Of a stretch of 64,000 nucleotides of DNA, positions 40,680 through 54,910 are shown piece by piece (positions within the stretch are counted from its first letter, which is position 1; each line of letters opens with the position of its first letter). This stretch comes from Actinoplanes lutulentus (GTDB lineage: Bacteria; Actinomycetota; Actinomycetes; Mycobacteriales; Micromonosporaceae): positions 248,001 through 312,000 of the forward strand of contig NZ_QLMJ01000001.1 in NCBI RefSeq assembly GCF_003259845.1, given 5' to 3'. The notes under the pieces are model-generated. The model saw nothing but the letters and a program-made list of their open reading frames with translations, was not told the origin of the DNA and made no database searches. The position numbers and the translations under genes are program-made.

Positions 40680-41615
40680 ATGGGTCCCGTTCTCTGCCTC
40701 GTCTCCGCGGTCTGCTTCGGCGCGCTGGGCATCTTCGGCAAGCTCGCCTTCGAAGCCGGCGTCTCCCCCGCCGCGCTGCTGCTGATCCGTTTCGGTCTGG
40801 CAGCGGTGGTCATGGCCGCCTTCCTCGCCATCCGGCGAGAGAAGCGGAAGATCAAGACCCCCGGCCGGCTTCTGGCCGCGGCCCTCACTCTCGGAGCCCT
40901 GGGGTACGCGGCCCAGGCGAGCCTGTATTTCGCAGCGCTGCACCGGATGGACGCGTCGCTGCTGTCGCTGGTCTTCTACCTGTATCCGCTGCTCGTGACG
41001 GTGACGGCGGTGGTGCTCGGCCGGGACAGGCTGACGCCCGGGAGGGTCGCCGCGCTGCTCGCCGCGTCCGCCGGGGTGCTGCTGGTCCTGCTCGGCGCGG
41101 GCGGTGTGCCGATCGATCCGATCGGGGTGATCCTGGCGTTCGCGTCGGCGGTCACCTACACCGTGTACATCCTCTGCTCGGACCGGGTCGTGCGGCGGAT
41201 GCCGCCGCTGCTGCTGACCACACTGGTGCTGACCGGCGCGGCCGCGGCGCTGGGAATCCGTTCGCTGATCGGCGGCGGTGTCGACCTGAGATTCGGCGCC
41301 GAGGGCTGGCTCTGGCTGGGCTGCATCGTCGTGGTCTCCACAGTGCTGCCGATCATGGCGTTCTTCGCGGGTCTGCGCCGGACCGGACCGTCGACGGCGG
41401 CGATCCTCTCCACGTTCGAGCCGGTGGTCACGACGGCACTGGCGGCGATGTTGCTGCACGAGTCGCTGACGGCCATCCAATCGGCCGGTGGCCTGCTGGT
41501 CCTCTCGTCAGTTGTCATCCTCCAATTGAGATCTGGTCGTGACGGAAAGACGTCAATATCATCAGCGCTTGATTCTCAAAGTAAGTACCGGGTTGGAAAC
41601 GCTGTGGGACGATAG
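40680..41615 (+). CDS. EamA/DMT-family exporter
   Basis: A 311-residue membrane protein with ten helices in two EamA repeats (VLCLVSAVCFGALGIFGKLAF and GVILAFASAVTYTVYILCSD). Members export amino acids, purines and other small metabolites. It is divergent from the LysR gene and shares its control region, so it is probably induced with it. Its stop codon lies 110 bases before the fxs operon, on the same strand, and a hairpin follows the stop. Confidence 0.88.
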   Translation: MGPVLCLVSAVCFGALGIFGKLAFEAGVSPAALLLIRFGLAAVVMAAFLAIRREKRKIKTPGRLLAAALTLGALGYAAQASLYFAALHRMDASLLSLVFYLYPLLVTVTAVVLGRDRLTPGRVAALLAASAGVLLVLLGAGGVPIDPIGVILAFASAVTYTVYILCSDRVVRRMPPLLLTTLVLTGAAAALGIRSLIGGGVDLRFGAEGWLWLGCIVVVSTVLPIMAFFAGLRRTGPSTAAILSTFEPVVTTALAAMLLHESLTAIQSAGGLLVLSSVVILQLRSGRDGKTSISSALDSQSKYRVGNAVGR

Positions 41616-41620
41616 TGGGT

Positions 41621-41645
41621 GGTTCGCGCCCTGAACCAGCGAACC
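41621..41645 (+). terminator. Hairpin after the exporter gene
   Basis: GGTTCGC pairs with GCGAACC around 11 bases, 5 bases after the EamA stop codon. The stem is short (7 base pairs); it would insulate the fxs operon. Confidence 0.45.
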
Positions 41646-41725
41646 CGGACCAGCGATAACCAATCCGGCGCAATCTCCGTTGAGCCGGTCGCGAGACCTC
41701 GAATCTGATATGACCTGGAGATATC

Positions 41726-41899
41726 GTGAACACCGAAGTCGCGACCGCGGACAACCTGGTCGGGCCGCTGGCCGTCATCAATGAGACGCCGCTGCGGGAC
41801 ATCCGCGCCGAGCAGGCCGACCGCGTGGTCCGGCGGATCGTCGACAAGGAAGCCCTTCTGAAGCGGTTGGATGTGGCCGCGTTCCAGTCAGCACACTGA
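41726..41899 (+). CDS. fxsA: FxsA: FxSxx-COOH cyclophane RiPP precursor peptide
   Basis: A 57-residue peptide gene. GTG at 41726 has the ribosome binding site GGAG 6 bases before it. The leader ends with the hydrophobic, charged stretch KEALLKRLDV and the C-terminus is AAFQSAH: the F-x-S-x-x-COOH signature of the FxsA family. In the three-residue cyclophane class the maturase links the Phe ring to the beta carbon of the third residue, here probably Phe53 to Ser55, leaving Ala-His free. ILE/PLRDI near residue 23 resembles the conserved leader of such peptides. The stop codon overlaps the maturase start by one base (TGATG). This gene is below usual gene-finder size limits. Confidence 0.88.
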   Translation: MNTEVATADNLVGPLAVINETPLRDIRAEQADRVVRRIVDKEALLKRLDVAAFQSAH

Positions 41900-44253
41900 T
41901 GCCCGGCCCGGCGGGCGGTGACGCCGGCGGAGCCCATCCGCTGAGCCAGTTCGTTCTGAAGGTGCACGGCCGGTGCGACCTGAAGTGCGACCACTGCTAC
42001 GTCTACGAGCACGCTGACCAGAGCTGGAAAACCAAGCCCCGGGCCATGTCGCGCGACGTCGCCCGGGCCGCCGCGCGCCGGATCGCCGAGCACGCCGCCC
42101 GCTGGGAACTGCCCCGGGTTCGCGTGGTCGTGCACGGCGGCGAGCCCCTGCTCCTCGGCGCCGCCGGGCTGGACGAACTGATCACCACGATCCGGGAACC
42201 GATCGAAGAGGTCACCCGTCTCTCGCTGACCATGCAGACGAACGGCGTGCGGTTCGGCCCGGAGACCGCTGACGTGCTCAAGCGCCACGGCGTGCGGGTC
42301 GGTGTCTCGCTCGACGGCGACCGGGAAGCCAACGACCGGCACCGCCGGTTCGCGAACGGCGCCGGCAGCTTCGACCAGGTGCGGACCGCCCTGGCGCTGC
42401 TGCGAACCCCCGCCTACCGCGAGCTGTACGCCGGACTGCTCTGCACGATCGACGTCCGCAACTCCCCGGACCGGGTCTACGAGGCTCTGCTCGCCGAGCG
42501 CCCGCCCGCCGTCGACTTCCTGCTCCCGCACGCCACCTGGGACGATCCGCCGCTGCGTCCGGACGGTGATCCCACGCCCTATGCGAGTTGGCTGTCCGTG
42601 ATCCACCGCCGCTGGCTGGCCGACGGGCGACCCATGCGGATCCGGCTCTTCGACGGCCTGCACTCCACCGCGAGTGGCGGCCCGAGCGGTTCCGAGCAAC
42701 TCGGCGCGGACACCGTCGACATGGTCGTCATCGAGACCAGCGGGGCGTACGAGCAGGCCGACTCGGTGAAGACCGCGTACGACGGCGCGCCCGCGACCGG
42801 CCTGAGCGTGCTCACCCACCCGGTCGACGACGTCTCCCGGCTGCGGCCGATCGCGGTCCGGCAGACCGGGATCACCGGCCTCGGCGCCGTCTGCCGTACC
42901 TGCCCGGTCGTCCAGCAGTGCGCCGGTGGCCTCTACGCCCACCGGTACCGCACCGGCCACGGATTCGACAACCCGTCGGTCTACTGCGCCGACCTGCGCG
43001 TCCTGATCGACCGGACCAACGAGGAGAGCCGGATGCACGCGGATGCCGCGGCGGAACACACCGGTCCTGCCGACGTGATCGCCCAGATCGCCTCGGGCTT
43101 CGGCGACGAGGCGACGATCACCTGGCTGGCCGAGCAGCAGCAGTCGGTCACCCGCGCGCTGGTCGCCGCGACGATCGACCAGTTCGGCGAGACCGCCGGC
43201 TGGCGAGCGCTCACCGACCTGGAGATCGGGCACGCCGAGGCGGTACGCCAGGTGCTCGCCCATCCGTACGTCCGGGCCTGGGCGGTCGGCATGCTCCGGA
43301 CCGGCGATCCGGCGGGACTGCCCTACCTGGGCGGGCTCGCCGCCGCGGCGGCCGTGCACGCGAACGTGCCGATGGAGACCGACGTGCGGATCGACCGCGG
43401 CGTGGTCGCCCTGCCGACGGTCGGCACGCTGTACTGGCCGGACGCGGTCACCGCCGGCGCCCGGATCGCCGTCGACCACGGCAAGCTGCGGCTCACCGGG
43501 CCGGACCACGAGGTACTCACCGTCGATCTGTCCCAGCAGGAGTCGTCGGCGCACTGGCAGCCGGCCCGGCACGTCGCGCGGGACGGCTGGAGTGTGCGCA
43601 TCGAGGACGCCGACCCGGCCCGTGACTGTCACGGCTGGACACCCGCGGGACGGCTGGACGAACCGGCCGCCGCACGGTGGCGCGACTCGCTGACGGAGGC
43701 CTGGCGACTGATCGACACGGAGCTGCCGGCGTACGCCCCGGCGCTCCGTACCGGACTGAAAGTGATCATGCCGCTGGAGCAGGACCCGGCCGGGAAGCAG
43801 CGCGCGTCCACGGCGATGGACGCGTTCGGCTCGTTCTCCGCCGCGCCGGCCGGCCCGGCCGATCTCGCGGTGCTGCTGGTCCACGAGTTCCAGCACGCCA
43901 AGCTGGGCGCGCTGTGCGACCTCTACGACCTGCACGACCCCGACTCGCAGGCGTCGATCACCGTCGGCTGGAAAACCGAGTCCCGGCCGGTCGAGGCGGC
44001 CTTGCAGGGCGTTTACGCGCACGCCGCGGTGGCCGACGTCTGGCGCCTGCGGGCCGGCCGCGATCCGCGTGCGCCCGAGCTCTACGCGATGTACCACCGC
44101 TGGACCGTCGACGCGATCGCCGCACTGCGCGCGACCGGCGCCCTGACTCCCCTGGGTACGTCATTCGTCGACGGGATGGCCGCGACGCTCGATTCCTGGG
44201 AGAGCGGGGCTTTCAAGGAGACCGCGGCTTTTAAGGAGACCGCGGGGCCGTGA
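41899..44253 (+). CDS. fxsB: FxsB: radical SAM/SPASM cyclophane-forming maturase with C-terminal HExxH domain
   Basis: A 784-residue peptide maturase. The radical SAM motif CDLKCDHC has Cys26, Cys30 and Cys33, followed by MSRDVA and VVVHGGEPLLLG. The SPASM half binds auxiliary iron-sulfur clusters through cysteines near 332-341 (CRTCPVVQQCAGG) and in the segment GFDNPSVYCADL, both diagnostic of FxsB. After about residue 400 the chain continues into a second domain with HEFQH (residues 662-666), an HExxH metal site known from putative RiPP-modifying proteins that usually are separate from or fused to FxsB. Expected reaction: C-C cross-link in FQSAH, plus a second metal-dependent change. It overlaps fxsA by one base and the acetyltransferase gene by four. 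Confidence 0.93.
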   Translation: MPGPAGGDAGGAHPLSQFVLKVHGRCDLKCDHCYVYEHADQSWKTKPRAMSRDVARAAARRIAEHAARWELPRVRVVVHGGEPLLLGAAGLDELITTIREPIEEVTRLSLTMQTNGVRFGPETADVLKRHGVRVGVSLDGDREANDRHRRFANGAGSFDQVRTALALLRTPAYRELYAGLLCTIDVRNSPDRVYEALLAERPPAVDFLLPHATWDDPPLRPDGDPTPYASWLSVIHRRWLADGRPMRIRLFDGLHSTASGGPSGSEQLGADTVDMVVIETSGAYEQADSVKTAYDGAPATGLSVLTHPVDDVSRLRPIAVRQTGITGLGAVCRTCPVVQQCAGGLYAHRYRTGHGFDNPSVYCADLRVLIDRTNEESRMHADAAAEHTGPADVIAQIASGFGDEATITWLAEQQQSVTRALVAATIDQFGETAGWRALTDLEIGHAEAVRQVLAHPYVRAWAVGMLRTGDPAGLPYLGGLAAAAAVHANVPMETDVRIDRGVVALPTVGTLYWPDAVTAGARIAVDHGKLRLTGPDHEVLTVDLSQQESSAHWQPARHVARDGWSVRIEDADPARDCHGWTPAGRLDEPAAARWRDSLTEAWRLIDTELPAYAPALRTGLKVIMPLEQDPAGKQRASTAMDAFGSFSAAPAGPADLAVLLVHEFQHAKLGALCDLYDLHDPDSQASITVGWKTESRPVEAALQGVYAHAAVADVWRLRAGRDPRAPELYAMYHRWTVDAIAALRATGALTPLGTSFVDGMAATLDSWESGAFKETAAFKETAGP

Positions 44254-45044
44254 CCGGGCTGCTCCTCACCAAGACCTCCCTCGTCGCCGATCTGACCGCG
44301 CTCGGCGTCGGCGAGGGCGGCGCCCTGCTGGTGCACTGCTCGATGCGCCGGATCGGCTGGGTCGACGGCGGGCCGGCCACCCTGCTGGCCGCGCTGCGCG
44401 AGGTGACCGGGCCCACCGGGACGATCGTGGTGCCCGCCCAGACGCCGAACAACTCGCTGACCAGCCCGGTCCACCGGACCGCCACGGCCGGGATGAGCAA
44501 CGCCGCCCGAGCCCGGTACGTGGCCGGGATGCCGGGCTTCCAGCCGGACAGCACACCGTCGTACGGCGTCGGGAGCTTCGCCGAGCACATCCGTTCGCAT
44601 CCGGGCGCGCTGCGCAGCCGGCACCCGCAGACCTCCTTCGCGGCGCTGGGCCCGGACGCCGCCGCGATCGTCCGCGACCACGATCTCCGCTCGCACCTCG
44701 GTGAGCGCTCGCCGCTGGGCGCGCTCTACCAGGGCGGGGCCTCGATTCTGCTGCTCGGCGTCGGCATGGAGAAGTGCACGGCGCTGCACCTCGCCGAATA
44801 CCGGCTTCCGCAGCCTGCGAAGGTCATGGAGTACTCCTGCTTCGTGACCGAAAATGGTCAGCGCCGGATGGAGCGGTTCGAAGCGCTGAAGCTCGACGAC
44901 AGCGACTTCGGCGAAGCGGGACGAGATCTTCTCCGGCAGCCCTGGGCGACCACCGGCCGGGTGGGCGGCGCGGCGGCTCACCTGATCCCACTGGCACCGG
45001 CGGTGGATCAGGCCGAGGAATGGTTCACCACCAATCGCGGTTGA
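44250..45044 (+). CDS. AAC(3)-family N-acetyltransferase in the fxs operon
   Basis: A 264-residue protein of the aminoglycoside 3-N-acetyltransferase fold. Visible marks: LLVHCSMRRIGWVDGG, TGTIVVPAQTPNNSLTSP, MPGFQPDSTPSYGVGSFAEHIR, and GERSPLGALYQGGASILLLGVG. Usual family length is 260-280. The start GTG overlaps the fxsB stop codon (GTGA), so it is translationally coupled to the maturase and is more likely a modifying enzyme of the RiPP, or acting on another operon product, than a resistance gene. Active-site His of the family cannot be assigned with confidence. No aminoglycoside cluster is nearby. Confidence 0.82.
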   Translation: MTGLLLTKTSLVADLTALGVGEGGALLVHCSMRRIGWVDGGPATLLAALREVTGPTGTIVVPAQTPNNSLTSPVHRTATAGMSNAARARYVAGMPGFQPDSTPSYGVGSFAEHIRSHPGALRSRHPQTSFAALGPDAAAIVRDHDLRSHLGERSPLGALYQGGASILLLGVGMEKCTALHLAEYRLPQPAKVMEYSCFVTENGQRRMERFEALKLDDSDFGEAGRDLLRQPWATTGRVGGAAAHLIPLAPAVDQAEEWFTTNRG

Positions 45045-45204
45045 TCCGCGCTTCGCCTCACCCTGGCATTGATCTCCGTCGGTGACACAGTGGAACGGGA
45101 CCGTTACGCTGAACTCCGGGTCGTAACTGGATCGGGGATCGGAGCGAACGTGCGCGTTGCGGGAAACATGCCCGGCCTCCGGGCACCGTGATCGGATCTC
45201 GACC

Positions 45205-46248
45205 GTGCCGGCGCCCGACCTGTACTTCGCGCTGATCCATGCGCGCACGTCGGTCCCGAACCAATGGGTCGAGGGGTTCTATCACCGGCTCGACCTGGAG
45301 GTGCAGCGCCGCGCCGACCCGCCGTACGGTCTGCGCCGCGGCTCGCTCTACTTCGCCACCGCCGGCGACGCCCGCAAGGCGCTGGCGAACGGTGTCCCGC
45401 GGGTGCGGGTGCTCGTACCCCTCTACAGCCGGGAGTTTCTGCACGAGCCGCCGGCCGACTTCGGCAACCGGCTGCATCGCCTCAACGACTCCGACGAGCC
45501 GCCCTTCGTGCACCCGGTCCTCTGGGAGCCGCACCTTCCGGCACGCCGGGTCAACGGCCTCGCCCAGGCCACCTCGCTGGGTGCCGCCGTCCAGGAGTAC
45601 GCGGAGTACGGGATGGTCTCGATCTGCCGGCTCAGCGCGTACACCGCGGAGCTGCGGCAGATCATCGAGGAGCTCGCGGACCGTGTGGTGTCCGCCGCCG
45701 AGGACCCCGACCAGGTGCCGCTCTGGATCCGCAGCCGCCCGGCGCTGCCGATGCCCGCCCGGTCACCGGCGGCCCGATTCCTGATCACCGTGGTGCGGCC
45801 GCACGGGCGCGGTGTCGACTGGTCGCCGTTCGGCACCGACACGGGCTGGGTGACCGATCACGCCCGGCACGCCGCGCAGCGGCTGTCGCTGCTGCCCGAG
45901 ATCGTGCTCGCCCCGGCGGCGCCGGGCACCGCCAACGGCTTCCACGAGTCGGCCGGCGTGCTGCTGCTCGACTCCGCGGTGCTCGACGACCCGAACGCCC
46001 GCTCGATCGCCGAACGGATACTCCGGGACATGCCGCCGTGGATGACCGTGGTGATGGTGATCCGCCCGGAAGGCGCCGGCCGGGCACACGATCTGGCCGC
46101 CCGGGCGAGAGCCATGACGCGCAACGGCGTGCAGATCGCCCGGGATGCCCCGGAACTTCAGCGAGCCATCGACGAGGCGGTCACCAAGGCCCGCCGGAAC
46201 TTTCTTCGCAGCAGGCGTTCGCGAGGACCGTGGGAGGACTTGCCATGA
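45205..46248 (+). CDS. fxsC: FxsC: TIR-like protein
   Basis: A 347-residue soluble protein of the FxsC family. The N-terminal half is TIR-like (LYFALIHARTSVPNQWVEGF, RVRVLVPLYSREFLHEP) and the second half, from about residue 190, is a FxsC-specific domain (FLITVVRPHGRGVDWSPFG, DMPPWMTVVMVIRPEGAGRAHD). GTG at 45205 begins right at the TIR-like strand; TTG at 45157 gives a 16-residue longer version. Its stop codon overlaps the start of fxsT (ATGA). TIR folds act in signalling or NAD cleavage; I cannot see an unambiguous catalytic Glu, so enzyme activity is undecided. Confidence 0.85.
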   Translation: MPAPDLYFALIHARTSVPNQWVEGFYHRLDLEVQRRADPPYGLRRGSLYFATAGDARKALANGVPRVRVLVPLYSREFLHEPPADFGNRLHRLNDSDEPPFVHPVLWEPHLPARRVNGLAQATSLGAAVQEYAEYGMVSICRLSAYTAELRQIIEELADRVVSAAEDPDQVPLWIRSRPALPMPARSPAARFLITVVRPHGRGVDWSPFGTDTGWVTDHARHAAQRLSLLPEIVLAPAAPGTANGFHESAGVLLLDSAVLDDPNARSIAERILRDMPPWMTVVMVIRPEGAGRAHDLAARARAMTRNGVQIARDAPELQRAIDEAVTKARRNFLRSRRSRGPWEDLP

Positions 46249-49200
46249 GCAGAGGGCGCAACGGACAGGTCGTCACGTTCTACTCCTACAAGGGCGGCAC
46301 CGGCCGCACGATGGCCCTCGCCAACATCGCCTGGATCCTGGCGGCGAACGGCCACCGGGTCCTCGCCGTCGACTGGGACCTCGAGTCGCCCGGCCTGCAC
46401 CGGTACTTCGCGCCGTTCATGGACCTGCGATTCCTGGCCAGCACCGGCGGCGTCGTCGACATGATCAACCGGTACGAGTGGGACTCGTCCGAAGAGACCT
46501 GGGACCCCGCCCAGCTCAACAGTTATGCCAGCGTCCAGCAGCACTCCTTCTCGCTGGAGTGGGAACACTTCCCGGACGGCGGCACCCTCGACTTCCTCTC
46601 CGCCGGCCGGCAGAACCCGGCGTACGACGGCGGGCTCAGCCAGATCAAGTGGGACGAGTTCTACGAGGATCGGGGCGGCGGCCGGTTCTTCGACGCGATG
46701 CGCGCCGACATGAAGGACCGCTACGACTTCACCCTGATCGACAGCCGGACCGGGCACAGCGACATCGCCGGGATCTGCACCGGCCATCTGCCGGACGTGC
46801 TGGTGGACTGCTTCACGTTCAGCGACCAGGGCATCGAGGGTGCGGCCCGGATGGCACGGCAGCTGCACAGCCCCCGGGACATCCGGGTGCTGCCCGTGCC
46901 GATGCGGGTGGACCCGGCCGAGAAGCGTAAGGCCGACATCGGGCGGACGGTAGCGATGCGGGAGTTCGCCGAGCTGCCGAGCGGTCTCGACGAGGGCCGG
47001 CGCCGGGCGTACTGGCACGGTGTCGAGGTGCCTTACCAGGCGTATTACGCGTACGAGGAGACGCTGGCGACCTTCGGTGACGCGCCGGGTGCCCGCGGGA
47101 CGCTCCTCAGCGCGTACGAGGCTCTGGCCTCGCACATCACCGAGGGGCAGGTCACCACGCTGCCGCCGATGAACACGAGCCTCCGCCAGCAGATCATCAC
47201 GCGGTTCGAGCGCAAGCCGTTCTCCGAGGCCGACACCGTGCTGCTCTCCGGCTCCGGCCTCGACCAGGTGTGGCTGGAGTGGGTGGAACACGTCCTGCTC
47301 GCCGGAGGGCTCCGGGTCGTGCACGCTCCGGACGGCGGCGGCGACAAGGACTCACCGCTGAACGCCCAGCACCTGAAGATCATCTCCAGGGCTGAGGGCG
47401 CCGATTACTTCACCGGCACGGCGGACGCGCTCACCCCGGACCCGGGACTGCGGGCGATCTACACGGCTGACATCACCCCGTGGCGGAGCATCCCGGCGGT
47501 GAACTCGGCGTTCATCGCCGGGCTCGGTGGCAGTGCCGCGGCCGAGGAGATCCTCAAGCTGATCGGCCGGCCCGCCGGCGATCTGGACGTCGTGCTGGCC
47601 GGCGCGCCGCGTTACCCCGGCGAGGAACCCCACCTGGTGGTGAACCTGCCGGCCCGCAACGCCCGCTTCACCGGGCGCGAAGCCGGACTGCGTGACCTGC
47701 GCGGGCGGCTGCGCTCCGGCGCGGCGGTGGTGCTCTTCGGTACCCAGGCGGTCAGCCTCCAGGGCATGGGCGGCGTCGGCAAGACCCAGATGGCACTGGA
47801 GTACGCCCACCGTTACCGCGCCGCGTACGACGTGGTGGCCTGGTTGAAGGCCGACACCGAGGAGAACCTGCAGAACGCCCTGCGCGAGCTCGGCGGGCGG
47901 CTGCACCTGCAGTCCGAGCAGTCCGGCCGGGAGTTCGCCCGGGCCGTCGTCCAGGAGCTCAGCCGGGACAAACGACGCTACCTGCTGATCCTGGACAACG
48001 CCGAGGAGCCCGACGCGATCCTCGACTACCTGCCCCACGGGACCGCGCACGTCCTCATCACCTCGCGAAACATCGCCTGGGGCGATCAGACCCAGCCGGT
48101 GCAGGTCGACGTCTTCACCCGGGCCGAGAGCATCGATCACCTGATGCAGCGGGTCAGGGGCATCGAGGAGCACGACGCCGGCCTCGTTGCGGAACAGCTC
48201 GACGACCTGCCGATCGCGATCGCCGCGGCCGCCGCACTGCTCGACGAGTCGAACACCCCGGTCGACCAGTACCTCGAACTGATCCAGGCGGAGGGCCCGA
48301 GCGTCGCGCTCGTCGACACCGCCGGCCGGCCCATCGCCCGGACCTGGGACCTGTCCCTGAACCGGCTGCGGGAACGGGACCGGGCGGCGTACCGGCTCTT
48401 CCAGCTGTGCAGTGTGCTGGCGCCGGAGATCTCGCTCGACCTGGTCTACAGCGACCAGATGGCGGAGTTCCTCAAACCGCACAACCCGGCGGTCTCCGAG
48501 CGGATGCTGCGCGGCGCACTGGTCCAGCAGATCAACCGGCTGGCGCTGCTCCGGCTGGACCAGCGGCCCAGCTCCCCCGGCAGCAGCGACCGCAGCGGTC
48601 AGATCCTGATCCACCAGGTGGTGCAGGACGCGGTCCGGGACCGGATGACCGAAGAGGAGCGCGCCGAAGCCCAGCGGCAGGTGCACCAGGTGCTCGCCAA
48701 GGCGCGGCCCGAGGGCGAGGTCGAGGACGCGGAGCACTGGCCCCGGTTCCGGATGATCTGGCCGCACCTCGACGCGTCCCGGTCGGTCTACAGCACCGAC
48801 GAGGCGGTACGCCAGCTGCTGATCGACCGGATCCGGTACTACTACGTCCAGGCCGACCTCGCCACCGGCCGGGCCCGGGCCGATTGGGTCGCCGGGATCT
48901 GGGAGAAGCAGCTCGAGGAGACCACCGACCCGGAGCAGGCCGGCATCCTGCGCCAGCAACTGCTCCAGCTCCGGTTCAACCTGGCCAACCTGCTGCGCGA
49001 CCTGGGCGAGTTCAAGGCCTCCCTGGAACTGGACGAGCGGGTGCTGGCCGAGCAGGAACGGCTGCTGGGCCCCGACCATCCGCACACCCTGATGACCCGC
49101 GGCAGTTACGCGGCCGACCTGCGCGGCCTGGGTCGTTACCCGGAGGCGCTCGACATCGACGTCGACACCTACCGCGCCTGGCAGGACCAGTACGGCGACA

Positions 49201-50162
49201 ACTTCCCGCGCACCCTGGCGGCGCAGAACAACCTCGCGGTCTCCTACCGTCTGATGGGCCAGTTCACGCTGGCCGGTCAGCACGACGAGGAGGCGTGGCT
49301 GCGGCGTCGTGAGGTCAACGGCGAGACCAGCCTCTGGACGCTCGGCACGGCCGCCTGCCTGGCCCGGGACTGGCGCGACGCGGGCGACTTCGACCGGTCC
49401 GCCGCCCTGCTCAAGCAGACCCTCGACGACCTGCTGGAGACCCGCGGGCCGGACTCCCGGTCGACGCTCACCACGAAGTCGAACTACGCGGTCTCGTTGC
49501 GCAGCATCGGCCGGATCGACGAGGCGCTCCAGCTGCACCACGAGTCGTACGACCGGCTCCTGCTGCTGTTCGGCGACAAGAACCCGGAGACGGTGAGCTG
49601 CCGGTTCAGCCGCGCGCTCACCCTGCACAGCGCCGGGGAGGGCGAGCAGGCGGTGGCCGAGCTGCTCGAGATCCACGCGTTCTGGAAGCGCACGCTCGGC
49701 GACCGGCACCCGTACACGCTCGTGTGCCGCAACGACCTGGCCATCGCCGAACGCCGGCTCGGCGACCTGCCGAAATCCCGGGCGTGGATCCGGCCCACGG
49801 TCCCGGAGATGATCGAGGTGCTGCGGCCGGATCATCCGTACACGCTGTCCGCGCAGATGAACCTGGCGATCTGCGAGGCGGAACCGTCCGAGGGCGGCAC
49901 CGGGCCGGAGGCGGCCCGGGAGACCCTGCTGTCGATCGCCGGCGACATCCGGCGGGTGTTCGGGCCGGAGCACCCGAACACCTTCCGGTACGAGGCCAAC
50001 CTCGCCCTCGTCGAGGAGGCGCTGGGTGGCGAGCCCGCCGACGACCGGCTCGCCGCGCTCCGCGAGCGGGTGGTCCTCCGGCTCGGCGGGGCGCATCCGA
50101 TCGTGAGCGGGCTCGACCGGCGCCGGTACCTGTACCGGATCATCGACCCTCACCAGTTCTAG
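46245..50162 (+). CDS. fxsT: FxsT: ParA-like NTPase, TIR-like, NB-ARC and TPR protein of the FxSxx-COOH system
   Basis: A 1305-residue multidomain protein. Residues 1-300: ParA/MinD-like ATPase with the deviant Walker A YKGGTGRT near 15 and DWDLESPGLHRYF. About 320-480: TIR-like segment (TVLLSGSGLDQVWLEWVEHVL). About 490-800: NB-ARC/STAND ATPase with P-loop GMGGVGKT near 510, Walker B RYLLILDNAE and the sensor VLITSRN. About 900-1305: a run of kinesin-light-chain-like TPRs (GPDHPHTLMTRGSYAADL, GDRHPYTLVCRNDLAIAE). The ATG follows GGGAGG and overlaps fxsC by 4 bases. This order is that of the 'FxSxx-COOH system tetratricopeptide repeat protein'. The architecture resembles NLR-type sensors: TPRs recognise, NB-ARC switches, TIR-like signals. 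Confidence 0.9.
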   Translation: MSRGRNGQVVTFYSYKGGTGRTMALANIAWILAANGHRVLAVDWDLESPGLHRYFAPFMDLRFLASTGGVVDMINRYEWDSSEETWDPAQLNSYASVQQHSFSLEWEHFPDGGTLDFLSAGRQNPAYDGGLSQIKWDEFYEDRGGGRFFDAMRADMKDRYDFTLIDSRTGHSDIAGICTGHLPDVLVDCFTFSDQGIEGAARMARQLHSPRDIRVLPVPMRVDPAEKRKADIGRTVAMREFAELPSGLDEGRRRAYWHGVEVPYQAYYAYEETLATFGDAPGARGTLLSAYEALASHITEGQVTTLPPMNTSLRQQIITRFERKPFSEADTVLLSGSGLDQVWLEWVEHVLLAGGLRVVHAPDGGGDKDSPLNAQHLKIISRAEGADYFTGTADALTPDPGLRAIYTADITPWRSIPAVNSAFIAGLGGSAAAEEILKLIGRPAGDLDVVLAGAPRYPGEEPHLVVNLPARNARFTGREAGLRDLRGRLRSGAAVVLFGTQAVSLQGMGGVGKTQMALEYAHRYRAAYDVVAWLKADTEENLQNALRELGGRLHLQSEQSGREFARAVVQELSRDKRRYLLILDNAEEPDAILDYLPHGTAHVLITSRNIAWGDQTQPVQVDVFTRAESIDHLMQRVRGIEEHDAGLVAEQLDDLPIAIAAAAALLDESNTPVDQYLELIQAEGPSVALVDTAGRPIARTWDLSLNRLRERDRAAYRLFQLCSVLAPEISLDLVYSDQMAEFLKPHNPAVSERMLRGALVQQINRLALLRLDQRPSSPGSSDRSGQILIHQVVQDAVRDRMTEEERAEAQRQVHQVLAKARPEGEVEDAEHWPRFRMIWPHLDASRSVYSTDEAVRQLLIDRIRYYYVQADLATGRARADWVAGIWEKQLEETTDPEQAGILRQQLLQLRFNLANLLRDLGEFKASLELDERVLAEQERLLGPDHPHTLMTRGSYAADLRGLGRYPEALDIDVDTYRAWQDQYGDNFPRTLAAQNNLAVSYRLMGQFTLAGQHDEEAWLRRREVNGETSLWTLGTAACLARDWRDAGDFDRSAALLKQTLDDLLETRGPDSRSTLTTKSNYAVSLRSIGRIDEALQLHHESYDRLLLLFGDKNPETVSCRFSRALTLHSAGEGEQAVAELLEIHAFWKRTLGDRHPYTLVCRNDLAIAERRLGDLPKSRAWIRPTVPEMIEVLRPDHPYTLSAQMNLAICEAEPSEGGTGPEAARETLLSIAGDIRRVFGPEHPNTFRYEANLALVEEALGGEPADDRLAALRERVVLRLGGAHPIVSGLDRRRYLYRIIDPHQF

Positions 50163-50174
50163 GGACGGCGGCCC

Positions 50175-51011
50175 ATGGCGGACAGGGAGAACACCGATAG
50201 CACCATCCCGTCGCTGATCTCCTCGGCGTGGCGGACCGCGCCGCCGGTGCTGCGCCGGTTCACGTACTGGGTGTGGAGTCTCGGCACCGTCGCGGTGATC
50301 CTGGCGATCACGGCGGACGTGCAGAACCGGTGGGGCAGCCTGCAGTTCGTCACGAACATCCTGGCCGAGCTGATCTGCGGGCTGTTCGCGCTGCCGCTGG
50401 CTCTCGTGATCATCGCGCGGCTGGCCGAGTACCAGGTGAAGGAGCTCGAACGGGTCCGGCTGAAGGCCCGGTACGGCGCGGCGCTCGAACAGCTGACCGC
50501 CTCGGTACGCACCACCAGCGACTACGTCCAGGACCTGGTCCAGGAGGTGAGCGCCTCCACGAACGCCTTCGTGGAAGCGGCCCGGGTGGTCAACGGCAGG
50601 CTCGCCGATCCGGAACGCGCGCTGGAGTCGGCCCATCTGCTCCAGGCTCACATGGACAGCCAGCAGTGGCTCTTCTACGAGCGGGTGGTGACGCCGCTGC
50701 GGATCGACGGGAACCACCTGCGCGCGCTGCTCAGCGAACGCGTCCGCAACGGGGAGCCGACCGTCGAGTCGGCCCGTTTCGAACGGATCTGGAACGAACT
50801 GGAGTCCGCGCTCCGGCACCAGCGGCAGATCATGTCCACCGGGCACCAGGAGCTGGCCCGGGGCGTACCCAATGCGAACAGGGCGACCCGCCTGCGCAAC
50901 GCCGCGATCGTCCATCTGCACAGCGTCGACCACCTGCTGCAGCTCTGTGGCGAACTGGAGGCGTTCGCCACCGAGGCACGGGAACTCCTGGCCGGCCCGG
51001 AATCACCGTGA
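50175..51011 (+). CDS. Membrane protein at the end of the fxs operon
   Basis: A 278-residue protein with two transmembrane helices at about residues 35-53 (VWSLGTVAVILAITADV) and 62-82 (ILAELICGLFALPLALVIIA), then about 190 residues of charged, helical, probably coiled-coil cytoplasmic sequence (RLAEYQVKELERVRLKARYG). It begins 12 bases after the fxsT stop codon with GGCGGCCC before its ATG, on the same strand, so I assign it to the operon. I do not recognise a family. It could anchor FxsT or FxsC to the membrane. Confidence 0.75.
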   Translation: MADRENTDSTIPSLISSAWRTAPPVLRRFTYWVWSLGTVAVILAITADVQNRWGSLQFVTNILAELICGLFALPLALVIIARLAEYQVKELERVRLKARYGAALEQLTASVRTTSDYVQDLVQEVSASTNAFVEAARVVNGRLADPERALESAHLLQAHMDSQQWLFYERVVTPLRIDGNHLRALLSERVRNGEPTVESARFERIWNELESALRHQRQIMSTGHQELARGVPNANRATRLRNAAIVHLHSVDHLLQLCGELEAFATEARELLAGPESP

Positions 51012-51044
51012 CAGAGCCGGCCGGGTCTCAGAGCAAGCTATGTC

Positions 51045-51923
51045 TCAGGCGGCGAGCCAGCTGAGGATCCTCGGCAGCACCTCCATGGCCCCGAAGTGCG
51101 CGGCGTCGTGCTGCACGTGCACCTCCGACCGCGGTATCCGCTGCGCCAGCCATCGGCTGTGGCTGGCCGGCGAGAACGTGTCGTGCGCGCCGTGCCAGAG
51201 CCGGACCGGCGGCACAATCGTGTCGAGGGCGAAACCCCACTGGCGGCGGAACGCCACGATGTCGTCGAGCCAGCCGTACGGCCCGTCGCGCAGCGCGTCC
51301 GCGTAGCTCTTCACCAGCAGACGCCGGTACAGCACGCTCTGCATGAACCGCAGGTCGGGCGCGGACATCTGGGAACGCAGCTCTTCCAGGAGACTCTTCG
51401 GGTCGGCGGCGGTCTGCTCGGCCAGGGCCCGCAGCTCGTGCATCATCTCCGCGGTGCCGCGGTCGGCCGCGACGTGCTTGCTGGCGTTCTCGTCGGCCAT
51501 CCCCTCGTACCAGTTGAGGTCGGCCGCCTCCCAGGGCGCGAGTCCGACCAGGACGGCGGCGCGCGCGACCCGGTGCGGCAGCACGGCGGCGCAGGCGAGC
51601 GCGTGCGGGCCGCCGCCGGAGCGGCCCACCACGGCGAACCGCTTGATCTCCAGCCGGTCGGCGATGGCCCGGACGTCACTGGCGGCGTCGACGACCCGGC
51701 GGTTCGGCAGCCGGGTGGAGCCGCCGTAACCCGGGCGGTCGTAACTGATCAACTGGATGCCCTGGCGATAGAGCACGCTGCTGCGGGGGCGAGGACCGGA
51801 GCCCGAGCCGGGGGTGCCGTGCAGCAGGAACACCGGAATCCCGTCGGCCGCGCCGGACACCTGAACCGCGAGAACCCTGGAGCCGACGCCGACCTCGAAC
51901 CGTGTCACCAAGGCAACCCTCAT
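51045..51923 (-). CDS. Alpha/beta hydrolase
   Basis: A 292-residue hydrolase with the complete triad: the nucleophile elbow VGRSGGG (Ser), an Asp in WHGAHDTFSP and a His in HDAAHFGAME, plus oxyanion-hole segment LLHGTPGSGSG. The ATG at 51923 is used; upstream sequence could extend the frame by 14 codons without support. It converges on the fxs operon from the other side and ends 33 bases from it. Members of this family include esterases, epoxide and carbon-carbon hydrolases, and lactonases; the substrate is unknown. The position next to the fxs operon may be accidental. Confidence 0.85.
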   Translation of the reverse strand: MRVALVTRFEVGVGSRVLAVQVSGAADGIPVFLLHGTPGSGSGPRPRSSVLYRQGIQLISYDRPGYGGSTRLPNRRVVDAASDVRAIADRLEIKRFAVVGRSGGGPHALACAAVLPHRVARAAVLVGLAPWEAADLNWYEGMADENASKHVAADRGTAEMMHELRALAEQTAADPKSLLEELRSQMSAPDLRFMQSVLYRRLLVKSYADALRDGPYGWLDDIVAFRRQWGFALDTIVPPVRLWHGAHDTFSPASHSRWLAQRIPRSEVHVQHDAAHFGAMEVLPRILSWLAA

Positions 51924-53191: not shown

Positions 53192-54910
53192 GTGGCGCTC
53201 ACTGTGCACCTGCTCGGTAGGCCGCATGTGGAAAAGCATGGGGCGAAAGCCGGTTATCAGGTGCGCAGCCGCAAGAGCTGGGCGCTGCTGGCCATGTTGC
53301 TGCTCGGCGACCGGCCGCCGCTGACCCGCGGCCGGCTCGCCGGGATGCTCTACCCCGAGGCGCAGGATCCGCTGCGGGCGCTGCGCTGGGGGCTCACCGA
53401 GGTCCGCCGCTGCCTGGGTGTGCCGGTGGACGGCGATCCGGTGACGCTGCGCCTGCCGGACGACGCGGTCGTCGACGTTCACGTGCTCAGCCACGGCGCG
53501 TGGACGGCGGCGGCGCGGCTGCCCGGGCTCGGCGCGGAACTGCTCGACGGGATCGAGGTCCGGGGTGCGCCCGCGTTCGAGTCGTGGCTGCTCTCCGAGC
53601 GGCGCCGGGTCGCTGCCGCGTCCGAGGCGATGCTGCACGAGGCCGCGCTGGGCCGGCTCGCCGAGGGTGAACCGGACGCGGCCCGCGACCTGGCGCTGCG
53701 GGCCGCCGCGATGAACCCGCTCGACGAGAACCATCAGGCGCTGGTGATCCGGCTGTACCGGCTGGCCGGCGACGACGTGGCCGCGAAACGGCAGTTCGCG
53801 GCGGTCACCGAGCTGTTCCGCGACGAACTCGGCGTGACGCCGGGCATTGCGGTCGAGCAGGCGATGCGCGAGGTCCGCCGGAAACCCGACGAGCCCGCCG
53901 ACGAGGCGTCAGTCGAGGCCATCGTCGAGTCCGGCGCGGCGGCGGTGGCGGCCGGCGCGGTCGACGCCGGCGTCCGGTCCCTGCGCGCGGCGGTCCGCCT
54001 CGCCGATCGGCTGGACGGGTCGGCGAACCTGCGCGTGACCGCCCGCCTCCGCCTCGCCGAGTCGCTGGTCCACTCGCTGCGGGGCATGGATGAGGAGGGT
54101 CTGGCGACCCTCCACGAAGCCGATCGGCTCGCTCTCACCGCGCACGATCAGGCCGCGTCGGCGCAGGCCAGAGCGGAGATTGGGTACGTGGATTTCCTGC
54201 GTGGCCGTTACGACCGAGCACACCACTGGCTCGACTGCGCCCTCACGGCCGCTGAGGGTTCGCCGGCGACCACGGCGCGGATCACCACCTATCTGGGCGC
54301 CGTGCACAGCGACCGCGGCGAATATCCGCAAGCCCGGGCCCTGCTCGAAAAGGCGATCAACCTGGCCCGCGACGCCGGCGACCCGCGAACCGGGGCATAC
54401 GCGTTGTCCATGCTGGGACGCGTACACCTGCTCCTGAATGATCTTGATCTTGCGGCCGCGCACCTCGCGAGGTCGGAGGAGATCGCTCAGGGTGACCATT
54501 GGCTGGCTTTTCTGCCGTGGCCGCAGGCGCTGCGCGGTGAGGTTCACCTCGCGGCCGGCGACGTGGAGGCCGCTGAGCGGGTGTTGCGGCAGGCGTTCGC
54601 GCGGGCGTGCCGGCTCGGTGATCCCTGCTGGGAGGGGATGGCGGCGCGTTCGCTCGCGCTGGTCGCGGAGGCGCGCGGGGACACCGAGCAGGCGTTCGCG
54701 CTGCTCAGCGAGGCGCGGACGCGGTCGAACCGGCTGGCTGATCCTTACGTCTGGCTCGACGCGCACATTCTCGACGCGCAGTGCGAGCTCGGTCTGCGGC
54801 ACGGCCGTCCGGAGGCGCCGGCGTGGATCGACGCCCTGCGGCTGCTGACGGCGCGCACCGGCATCGGCAGTCCTGCTCTCGACGCACTGCTAGGCGTTCA
54901 GCAGGCTTAG
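53192..54910 (+). CDS. BTAD/SARP-type transcriptional regulator with TPRs
   Basis: A 572-residue regulator. The N-terminal winged-helix DNA-binding domain (VHLLGRPHVEKHGAK, SRKSWALLAMLLLGDRPPLTRGRLAGMLYP) is followed by the BTAD domain (ENHQALVIRLYRLAGDDVAAKRQFAAVTELFRDELG) to about residue 230. The remainder consists of TPRs (YPQARALLEKAINLARDAGDPRTGAYA). Length is double that of classical SARPs because of the TPR part. GTG at 53192 is 8 bases after the small-protein gene. Its end overlaps the convergent gene by 21 bases. Confidence 0.87.
   Translation: MALTVHLLGRPHVEKHGAKAGYQVRSRKSWALLAMLLLGDRPPLTRGRLAGMLYPEAQDPLRALRWGLTEVRRCLGVPVDGDPVTLRLPDDAVVDVHVLSHGAWTAAARLPGLGAELLDGIEVRGAPAFESWLLSERRRVAAASEAMLHEAALGRLAEGEPDAARDLALRAAAMNPLDENHQALVIRLYRLAGDDVAAKRQFAAVTELFRDELGVTPGIAVEQAMREVRRKPDEPADEASVEAIVESGAAAVAAGAVDAGVRSLRAAVRLADRLDGSANLRVTARLRLAESLVHSLRGMDEEGLATLHEADRLALTAHDQAASAQARAEIGYVDFLRGRYDRAHHWLDCALTAAEGSPATTARITTYLGAVHSDRGEYPQARALLEKAINLARDAGDPRTGAYALSMLGRVHLLLNDLDLAAAHLARSEEIAQGDHWLAFLPWPQALRGEVHLAAGDVEAAERVLRQAFARACRLGDPCWEGMAARSLALVAEARGDTEQAFALLSEARTRSNRLADPYVWLDAHILDAQCELGLRHGRPEAPAWIDALRLLTARTGIGSPALDALLGVQQA

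Follow-up and report, generated by a model that had tools for sequence, protein, structure and literature searches.

The window analyzed here, a 64,000-nucleotide stretch of the soil bacterium Actinoplanes lutulentus (contig NZ_QLMJ01000001.1, positions 248,001 to 312,000), carries on its forward strand, at 41726-51011, a six-gene FxSxx-COOH (Fxs) locus encoding the precursor peptide FxsA, the radical S-adenosylmethionine (SAM)/SPASM enzyme FxsB, an AAC(3)-like enzyme, the TIR-like protein FxsC, the NB-ARC/TPR protein FxsT and a membrane protein. Among 36 loci with a fused FxsB compared within the genus, three traits are combined only in the clade of the window (11/36), namely a FxsA tail ending in His or Pro, a two-helix membrane protein and a FxsC devoid of the WxxxE segment. 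The occurrence of a pseudo-TIR FxsC, an added membrane protein and a new tail on one branch suggests, as judged from the sequences, an exchange of effectors. We tentatively propose that the locus encodes a system of an intracellular peptide tail and an NLR (nucleotide-binding oligomerization domain-like receptor)-like sensor, whose TIR effector may have been replaced by the membrane protein.

For this comparison, 80 loci with their flanks were picked by open-frame length from the matches listed, a sample rather than an exhaustive set, since more long open frames lie outside it (e.g. in genomes G031, G053, G058 and G030). FxsB is fused in 35 of these loci (36 including the window), and the other 45 are of other kinds. 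Maximum-likelihood analysis of all 36 FxsB sequences placed the 11 membrane-protein loci in one clade (100/100 support), whose named members belong to Actinoplanes sp. DH11, A. philippinensis, A. regularis, A. xinjiangensis, Paractinoplanes ovalisporus, P. durhamensis and Jidongwangia harbinensis. The six genes had been placed by an earlier reading of the sequence alone (hereafter the sequence-only reading), and their open reading frames (ORFs) were confirmed at the same positions. They are real genes rather than chance ORFs, because the fxsB start is immediately preceded or overlapped by an ORF whose last residues are FxS and exactly two more in 36/36 fused loci (33 by a script allowing 1-6 residues after FxS, and L032, L035 and L055 from upstream translations), and because, in the aligned portion of each gene, nonsynonymous divergence (dN) between the window and 10 clade relatives was lower than synonymous divergence (dS). 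The highest dN/dS ratios were those of the membrane protein (~0.7) and of FxsC and the hydroxylase part of FxsB (~0.6 each).

FxsC (45205-46248, most likely starting at the GTG at 45205) is a degenerate TIR-like protein. Against NF040588, the model of the N-terminal TIR-like part, the window protein scored 70.5 bits (cut-off 130), with 55.5 and 63.3 bits for two further members of the clade, whereas all six non-clade relatives tested passed with 132.8-160.3 bits. Against the C-terminal model TIGR04276 it reached 20.8 bits (cut-off 55), a failure that is not peculiar to the clade because only 2/6 non-clade relatives passed, alongside 0/3 clade members tested. Pfam TIR_2 matched the six non-clade proteins with expectation values (E) of 1.7e-6 to 0.027, one of them above the Pfam cut-off, and TIR models gave no match in the clade FxsC tested. 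When the window protein was aligned with 30 other FxsC, the WxxxE segment was present in 22/23 non-clade proteins (19/20 in the alignment, L031 lacking the Trp, plus L047, L051 and L055) versus 0/11 clade members, all of which carry LHxPPxDF and a five-residue gap in its place. Close FxsC homologues, a set that includes the window protein and others of the 11, displayed LHxPPxDF in 28/28 cases and W...E in 0/28. The non-clade segment SPGYFNKSWPLRE places WPLRE opposite WPQKE of the TIR protein 3h16, its sole match in the PDB and a weak one (E 0.13). TIR enzymes are described as requiring a catalytic glutamate (PMC10022894), to which the WxxxE glutamate probably corresponds, and the clade FxsC seems from these alignments to have lost the TIR active site. 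FxsC matches above 50 bits were found in 31/36 fused loci; between fxsB and fxsT of L040 and L061, no FxsC was found. In three non-clade loci (L047, L051 and L055), the region between fxsB and fxsT holds, ahead of fxsC, an extra ORF (216-236 aa) whose N-terminal part, VFF[IM]SYAHRP, is TIR-like.

The membrane protein gene (50175-51011) begins 12 bases after fxsT, and its product had no match in NCBIfam or Pfam at E 0.1. Simple hydropathy gave two hydrophobic stretches, and the AlphaFold model (predicted local distance difference test (pLDDT) 83.7) shows a pair of helices suited to spanning the membrane, followed by long helices packed as a bundle. The gene is present in 11/11 clade loci versus 0/25 other fused loci. 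A homologue search returned 22 proteins including itself, and those named come from Actinoplanes, Paractinoplanes, Jidongwangia or an unassigned Micromonosporaceae genome. Class-wide, 6/394 genomes had matches, namely the window genome and five weak ones; in the 20 kb fetched from the latter, no FxsB or FxsT match was detected at E 0.01, and 3/5 of the membrane-protein matches were seen again.

FxsA (41726-41899; 57 aa, GTG start), kept in 11/11 clade loci, scored 30 bits against TIGR04268 (cut-off 28), which places it among the Fxs precursors, and ends in FQSAH (Phe53, Ser55 and His57). The blocks RVVRRIVD and RLDVAAF of this protein show no variation among the 11 clade loci. The last residue is His in eight and Pro in three of these, as against Ile in 21, Leu in three and Val in one of the 25 non-clade fused loci. 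Outside the window, none of 21 exact FxSxx tails from the best 30 class-level matches ends in His or Pro. Gly occurs at positions 2 and 4 of FxSxx in part of the 36 loci, which leaves Phe1 and residue 5 as the sole positions, apart from the cross-linked Ser3, with a beta C-H in every case. By analogy with known maturases, FxsA is naturally predicted to carry a Phe53-Ser55 cross-link, from ring to Cbeta between residues i and i+2 as in triceptides.

FxsB (41899-44253, 784 aa) overlaps fxsA by one base and passed TIGR04269 clearly (528.9 bits, cut-off 370). Its maturase domain (41899-43020, residues ~15-373), predicted to form cyclophanes, aligned with the ChlB structure 9gm3 at 239 bits. Its C-terminal part (43090-44253) is, by homology, a second enzyme that the sequence-only reading overlooked, an alpha-ketoglutarate HExxH peptide hydroxylase: it scored 135.7 bits against TIGR04267 (cut-off 40; best stretch residues 599-760), the PDB chain 22nu_A aligned with residues 395-770 at 197.5 bits, and HEFQH is intact, with HE[FVY]QH kept in 36/36 fused FxsB. 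Since FxsB also carries this hydroxylase, the modification probably does not end with the loss of 2 Da by cross-linking, and a Phe53-Ser55 cyclophane with one added hydroxyl is expected. This chemistry, though deduced by homology, has good support. The HExxH family is reported to hydroxylate His, Asp, Phe, Gln and Pro, and in fused ChlBH-type enzymes the hydroxylation needs a preinstalled cyclophane (PMC12636437, PMC13060819). Because residue 5 always has a beta C-H and both His and Pro are known substrates, our first guess for the hydroxylation site is His57, and our second is Phe53.

The FxsB cut-off was passed in 64/67 genus genomes and 0/14 control genomes. At E 0.001 matches appeared in 67/67 genus genomes but also in 11/14 controls, so only the curated cut-off counts for prevalence. 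In a class sample, 79/394 genomes matched the window FxsB at E 1e-40, mostly over the radical SAM part alone; in L143, L153, L155, L156 and L158, ~375 aa separate the match start from the first stop. The best 30 class-level matches comprise the window itself and 29 others, of which 21 have exact FxSxx tails, one has FxSxxx (L139) and seven have none (the pattern match of L141 being counted as spurious). Among the 21 FxsB with exact tails, HE..H was not found in ten (L142, L144, L146-L152 and L157), eight of which have tails ending in Leu, and was present in ten, seven of which have tails ending in Ile, the remaining one (L145) being undetermined; the pattern may have matched HESPH (L137) and HEVFH (L154) by chance. 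A tie between loss of HExxH and Leu tails is a hint, confounded by relatedness, and Leu also occurs with HExxH (L032, L055, L058 and L131).

FxsT (46245-50162), which overlaps fxsC by four bases, consists of a KGGVGR-variant ParA/MinD domain, a middle region, an NB-ARC domain with an intact P-loop, and TPRs. It scored 885.8 bits against NF040586 (cut-off 300) and 140.8 bits against NF047398, and it matched PF00931 (NB-ARC) and TPR families, which bears out the identification of the ParA/NB-ARC/TPR protein as FxsT. Both its ParA-like and NB-ARC/TPR parts are encoded on the same strand in 36/36 fused loci. The middle region had no useful Pfam match; from the alignment of the 36 proteins, we read it as degenerate TIR-like. 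The sequence-only reading had called the locus a complete Fxs set and suggested a search with the Fxs models. Precursor, maturase, AAC(3)-like enzyme, a gene at the FxsC position, FxsT and membrane protein are indeed all present, and FxsA, FxsB and FxsT pass their models, but FxsC, a divergent relative, falls below both of its cut-offs and has lost WxxxE. The membrane protein, found in only one clade of the loci compared, is not part of the textbook set.

The AAC(3)-like gene (44250-45044) overlaps fxsB by four bases. Its product scored 251 bits against Pfam Antibiotic_NAT (PF02522; cut-off 25), confirming its identity; the best solved relative is FrbF (3sma), and the HLAEYR motif is kept in the FrbF alignment. 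A role in aminoglycoside resistance was set aside on a score of 167 bits against the equivalog NF033082 (cut-off 270). The gene occurs in 19/36 fused loci.

A 160-base gap separates the AAC(3)-like gene from fxsC and contains, on the forward strand at 45082-45110, the putative promoter-like element GTGACA-N17-TACGCT. The pattern (A/G)TGACA-N17-TAC(G/T)CT was found before fxsC in 9/11 clade gaps, with 15/29 columns identical in the nine; in L046 the aligned element overlaps the AAC(3) stop, making 10/11 clade loci, and L033 is without it. No mononucleotide-shuffled gap (0/20000) contained the pattern, which was, however, chosen after the alignment had been seen and in related loci, and therefore indicates conservation rather than proving a promoter. 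Its -10 hexamer matches the consensus at only 3/6 positions, the element being proposed from conservation and not from the sigma-70 consensus scan, which gave no promoter and no terminator in 41300-51500. In 20 other fused loci, a relaxed pattern had no match within 400 bases upstream of fxsC. Upstream of fxsA the alignment showed conserved blocks and no convincing promoter hexamers. Given this conserved element, the single transcript over 41726-51011 assumed before is doubtful, and the sequences suggest two transcription units, with fxsC, fxsT and the membrane protein gene apart from fxsA, fxsB and the AAC(3)-like gene, although read-through across the gap may occur. Between the element and fxsC lies a 13-codon mini-ORF (45150-45191) with GGAG ahead of its GTG, possibly a leader ORF; similar short ORFs were seen by eye in several relatives, ending on the fxsC start in L033, L034 and L038. 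Further away, 2.2 kb downstream of the locus and past a convergent alpha/beta hydrolase gene, a BTAD-TPR regulator-like protein is encoded at 53192-54910.

In the proposed mechanism, the radical SAM domain of FxsB would, by homology, first join the Phe53 ring to the Ser55 Cbeta at the FxsA C-terminus, and the HExxH domain would then hydroxylate the tail, most likely at His57 and otherwise at Phe53, the reaction being taken from homologues and the site from our reasoning above. Full-length modified FxsA would stay in the cell, where FxsT would read the free C-terminal tail, either as its ligand or as a guarded "healthy" mark dependent on SAM, iron-sulphur, oxygen and alpha-ketoglutarate. This step is suggested by the exactly C-terminal position of FxSxx, the absence of recognized protease or exporter genes from the operon and the invariable presence of the TPR/NB-ARC protein, and recognition of a free C-terminus fits FxsA ending exactly in FxSxx in 36/36 loci. 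Activated FxsT may then act via its partners. By comparison, the partner in most fused-FxsB relatives would be a FxsC whose TIR keeps the WxxxE glutamate, while in the window clade the effector role would have passed from FxsC, now a pseudo-TIR adaptor, to the two-helix membrane protein. Acetylation of the peptide or of some other small substrate is a possible role of the AAC(3)-like enzyme. The proposal in its most specific form, that FxsT reads the oxidative state of a tail that is never released and that the clade swapped a TIR NADase for a membrane effector, keeping the dead TIR as an adaptor under its own promoter, is rather doubtful.

Several points weigh against this proposal. The assignment of the catalytic glutamate rests on alignment only, and the TIR nature of FxsC rests on sequence, since its model is poor in the N-terminal half (mean pLDDT 59.6). 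Foldseek searches of the FxsC and membrane-protein models against the PDB gave no match at E <= 0.001. The association of the three traits is a single event and not a statistical test, because all of them fall on one branch. A different membrane gene may follow fxsT in other loci, where the downstream ORF scan was crude: in L051 it gave an ORF with four hydrophobic stretches, and in several clade loci it chose wrong frames, so it was not used as evidence. Hydroxylation might also take place on residues N-terminal to Phe53. Hydroxylation and the cyclophane need not always co-occur, because class-level FxsB fusions without HExxH still accompany FxSxx tails and because a second FxsA locus of the window genome had no FxsB match nearby (20 kb searched). 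At that locus (L167:9572-9712; G000:C3 near 250577), the gene for a FxsA with the tail FNSAI (43.8 bits) precedes those for a HExxH hydroxylase standing on its own (167.7 bits), a GGDEF-EAL protein and a convergent FxsT (785 bits). The modification of FxSxx tails may thus need only the hydroxylase, or FxsB may act on them in trans. L073, L074, L076, L077 and L078 represent a doubled relative of the system: two solo radical SAM enzymes lie ~7 kb apart, FxsT-like matches occur on both strands, and several of the small upstream ORFs end near FxNF.

Instead of staying in the cell, the tail might be cut off as a short cyclophane of about VAAFQSAH, as the sequence-only reading had supposed, and serve as a signal or antibiotic, with FxsT, FxsC and the membrane protein providing regulation or immunity. 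Darobactin, which is likewise cross-linked by a radical SAM enzyme, acts as an antibiotic (PMC9055067), Kaur et al. suggested a toxin or signal peptide (PMC7159879), and PflC of the HExxH family also cuts a backbone oxidatively (PMC12636437), so oxidative cleavage of the FxsA tail is possible by analogy. However, protease and exporter families of NCBIfam and Pfam had no match in the six operon proteins and the HExxH family is reported as hydroxylating, which leaves the released peptide unsupported. Moreover, the leader part of FxsA is conserved too, and the gap-side sequence of the EamA transporter gene just upstream is common, by eye, only to L043, L049 and L052. We consider release unlikely.

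Defence against phages or self-recognition, with FxsA and FxsB as a modification switch and abortive infection as the outcome, would accord with the NB-ARC/TPR sensor, the TIR-like partner and the clade-limited membrane protein, as well as with the classification of such systems as conflict systems by Kaur et al. (PMC7159879) and with the partial match of FxsT to a PADLOC defence candidate. PADLOC, however, fitted no full defence model. It gave only partial matches, of pVip to FxsB and of the candidate PDC-M28B to the ParA-like start of FxsT (residues 8-57 and 8-73), and no model covering the whole system, which also counts against our own proposal; a defence role appears improbable. The cofactor needs of the two FxsB domains tie the modification to oxygen, alpha-ketoglutarate and SAM status. 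The locus might accordingly be read as a developmental or metabolic regulator in which FxsA modification reports these compounds and the membrane protein is an ordinary signalling partner without killing, and the second FxsA/HExxH locus adjoins a GGDEF-EAL protein. The WxxxE segment in 22/23 non-clade FxsC nevertheless fits a damaging output better, and we regard such a regulator as quite unlikely.

FxsB-type maturases are common, and as to the purpose of the FxSxx-COOH peptides, the intracellular tail-and-sensor system proposed here would, if true, link the chemistry of ribosomally synthesized and post-translationally modified peptides (RiPPs) to NLR-type sensing. The window clade makes the question directly testable, namely as to which residue (His57 or Phe53) is hydroxylated, what FxsT binds and whether the membrane protein took over from a TIR enzyme. 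A literature search, which largely left subscription journals outside, returned nothing on the clade, its membrane protein or FxsC degeneration, nor any test of a clade FxsB; the work of Phan and Morinaka (2022) on actinobacterial maturases may cover FxsB relatives. VMAP/MoxR-vWA ternary systems are no counterpart by content, as no vWA or MoxR Pfam match was found in the six operon proteins or 20 neighbouring ORFs scanned.

The Fxs family and its conflict-system reading are already known (PMC7159879). The locus resembles the FxSxx-COOH system of NCBIfam in that FxsA, FxsB and FxsT pass TIGR04268, TIGR04269 and NF040586, and differs from it in a FxsC under both cut-offs without WxxxE, an extra membrane protein and a FxsA ending in His. 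With the standalone actinobacterial peptide-processing conflict systems of Kaur et al. 2020 (AP-ATPase with an inactive MinD/ParA-like domain; PMC7159879), it shares the radical SAM/SPASM enzyme, the FxSxx peptide, the zincin-like domain, the AP-ATPase with its ParA-like domain and the TPRs. The section concerned reads the zincin-like domain as a peptide-releasing peptidase, in contrast to the hydroxylase predicted here, and mentions neither an AAC(3)-like nor a membrane gene. MscB, one of the enzymes that form three-residue cyclophanes, makes the Phe C4 to Ser Cbeta bond (PMC11002830), the same bond as expected here, and ChlBH-type enzymes, as described, have the same two-domain fusion as the window FxsB (PMC12636437, PMC13060819), to which the window locus additionally joins an NLR-like sensor. 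From the sequences compared, the new element thus seems to be a branch of the Fxs systems in which the TIR-like partner is altered and a membrane protein is added.

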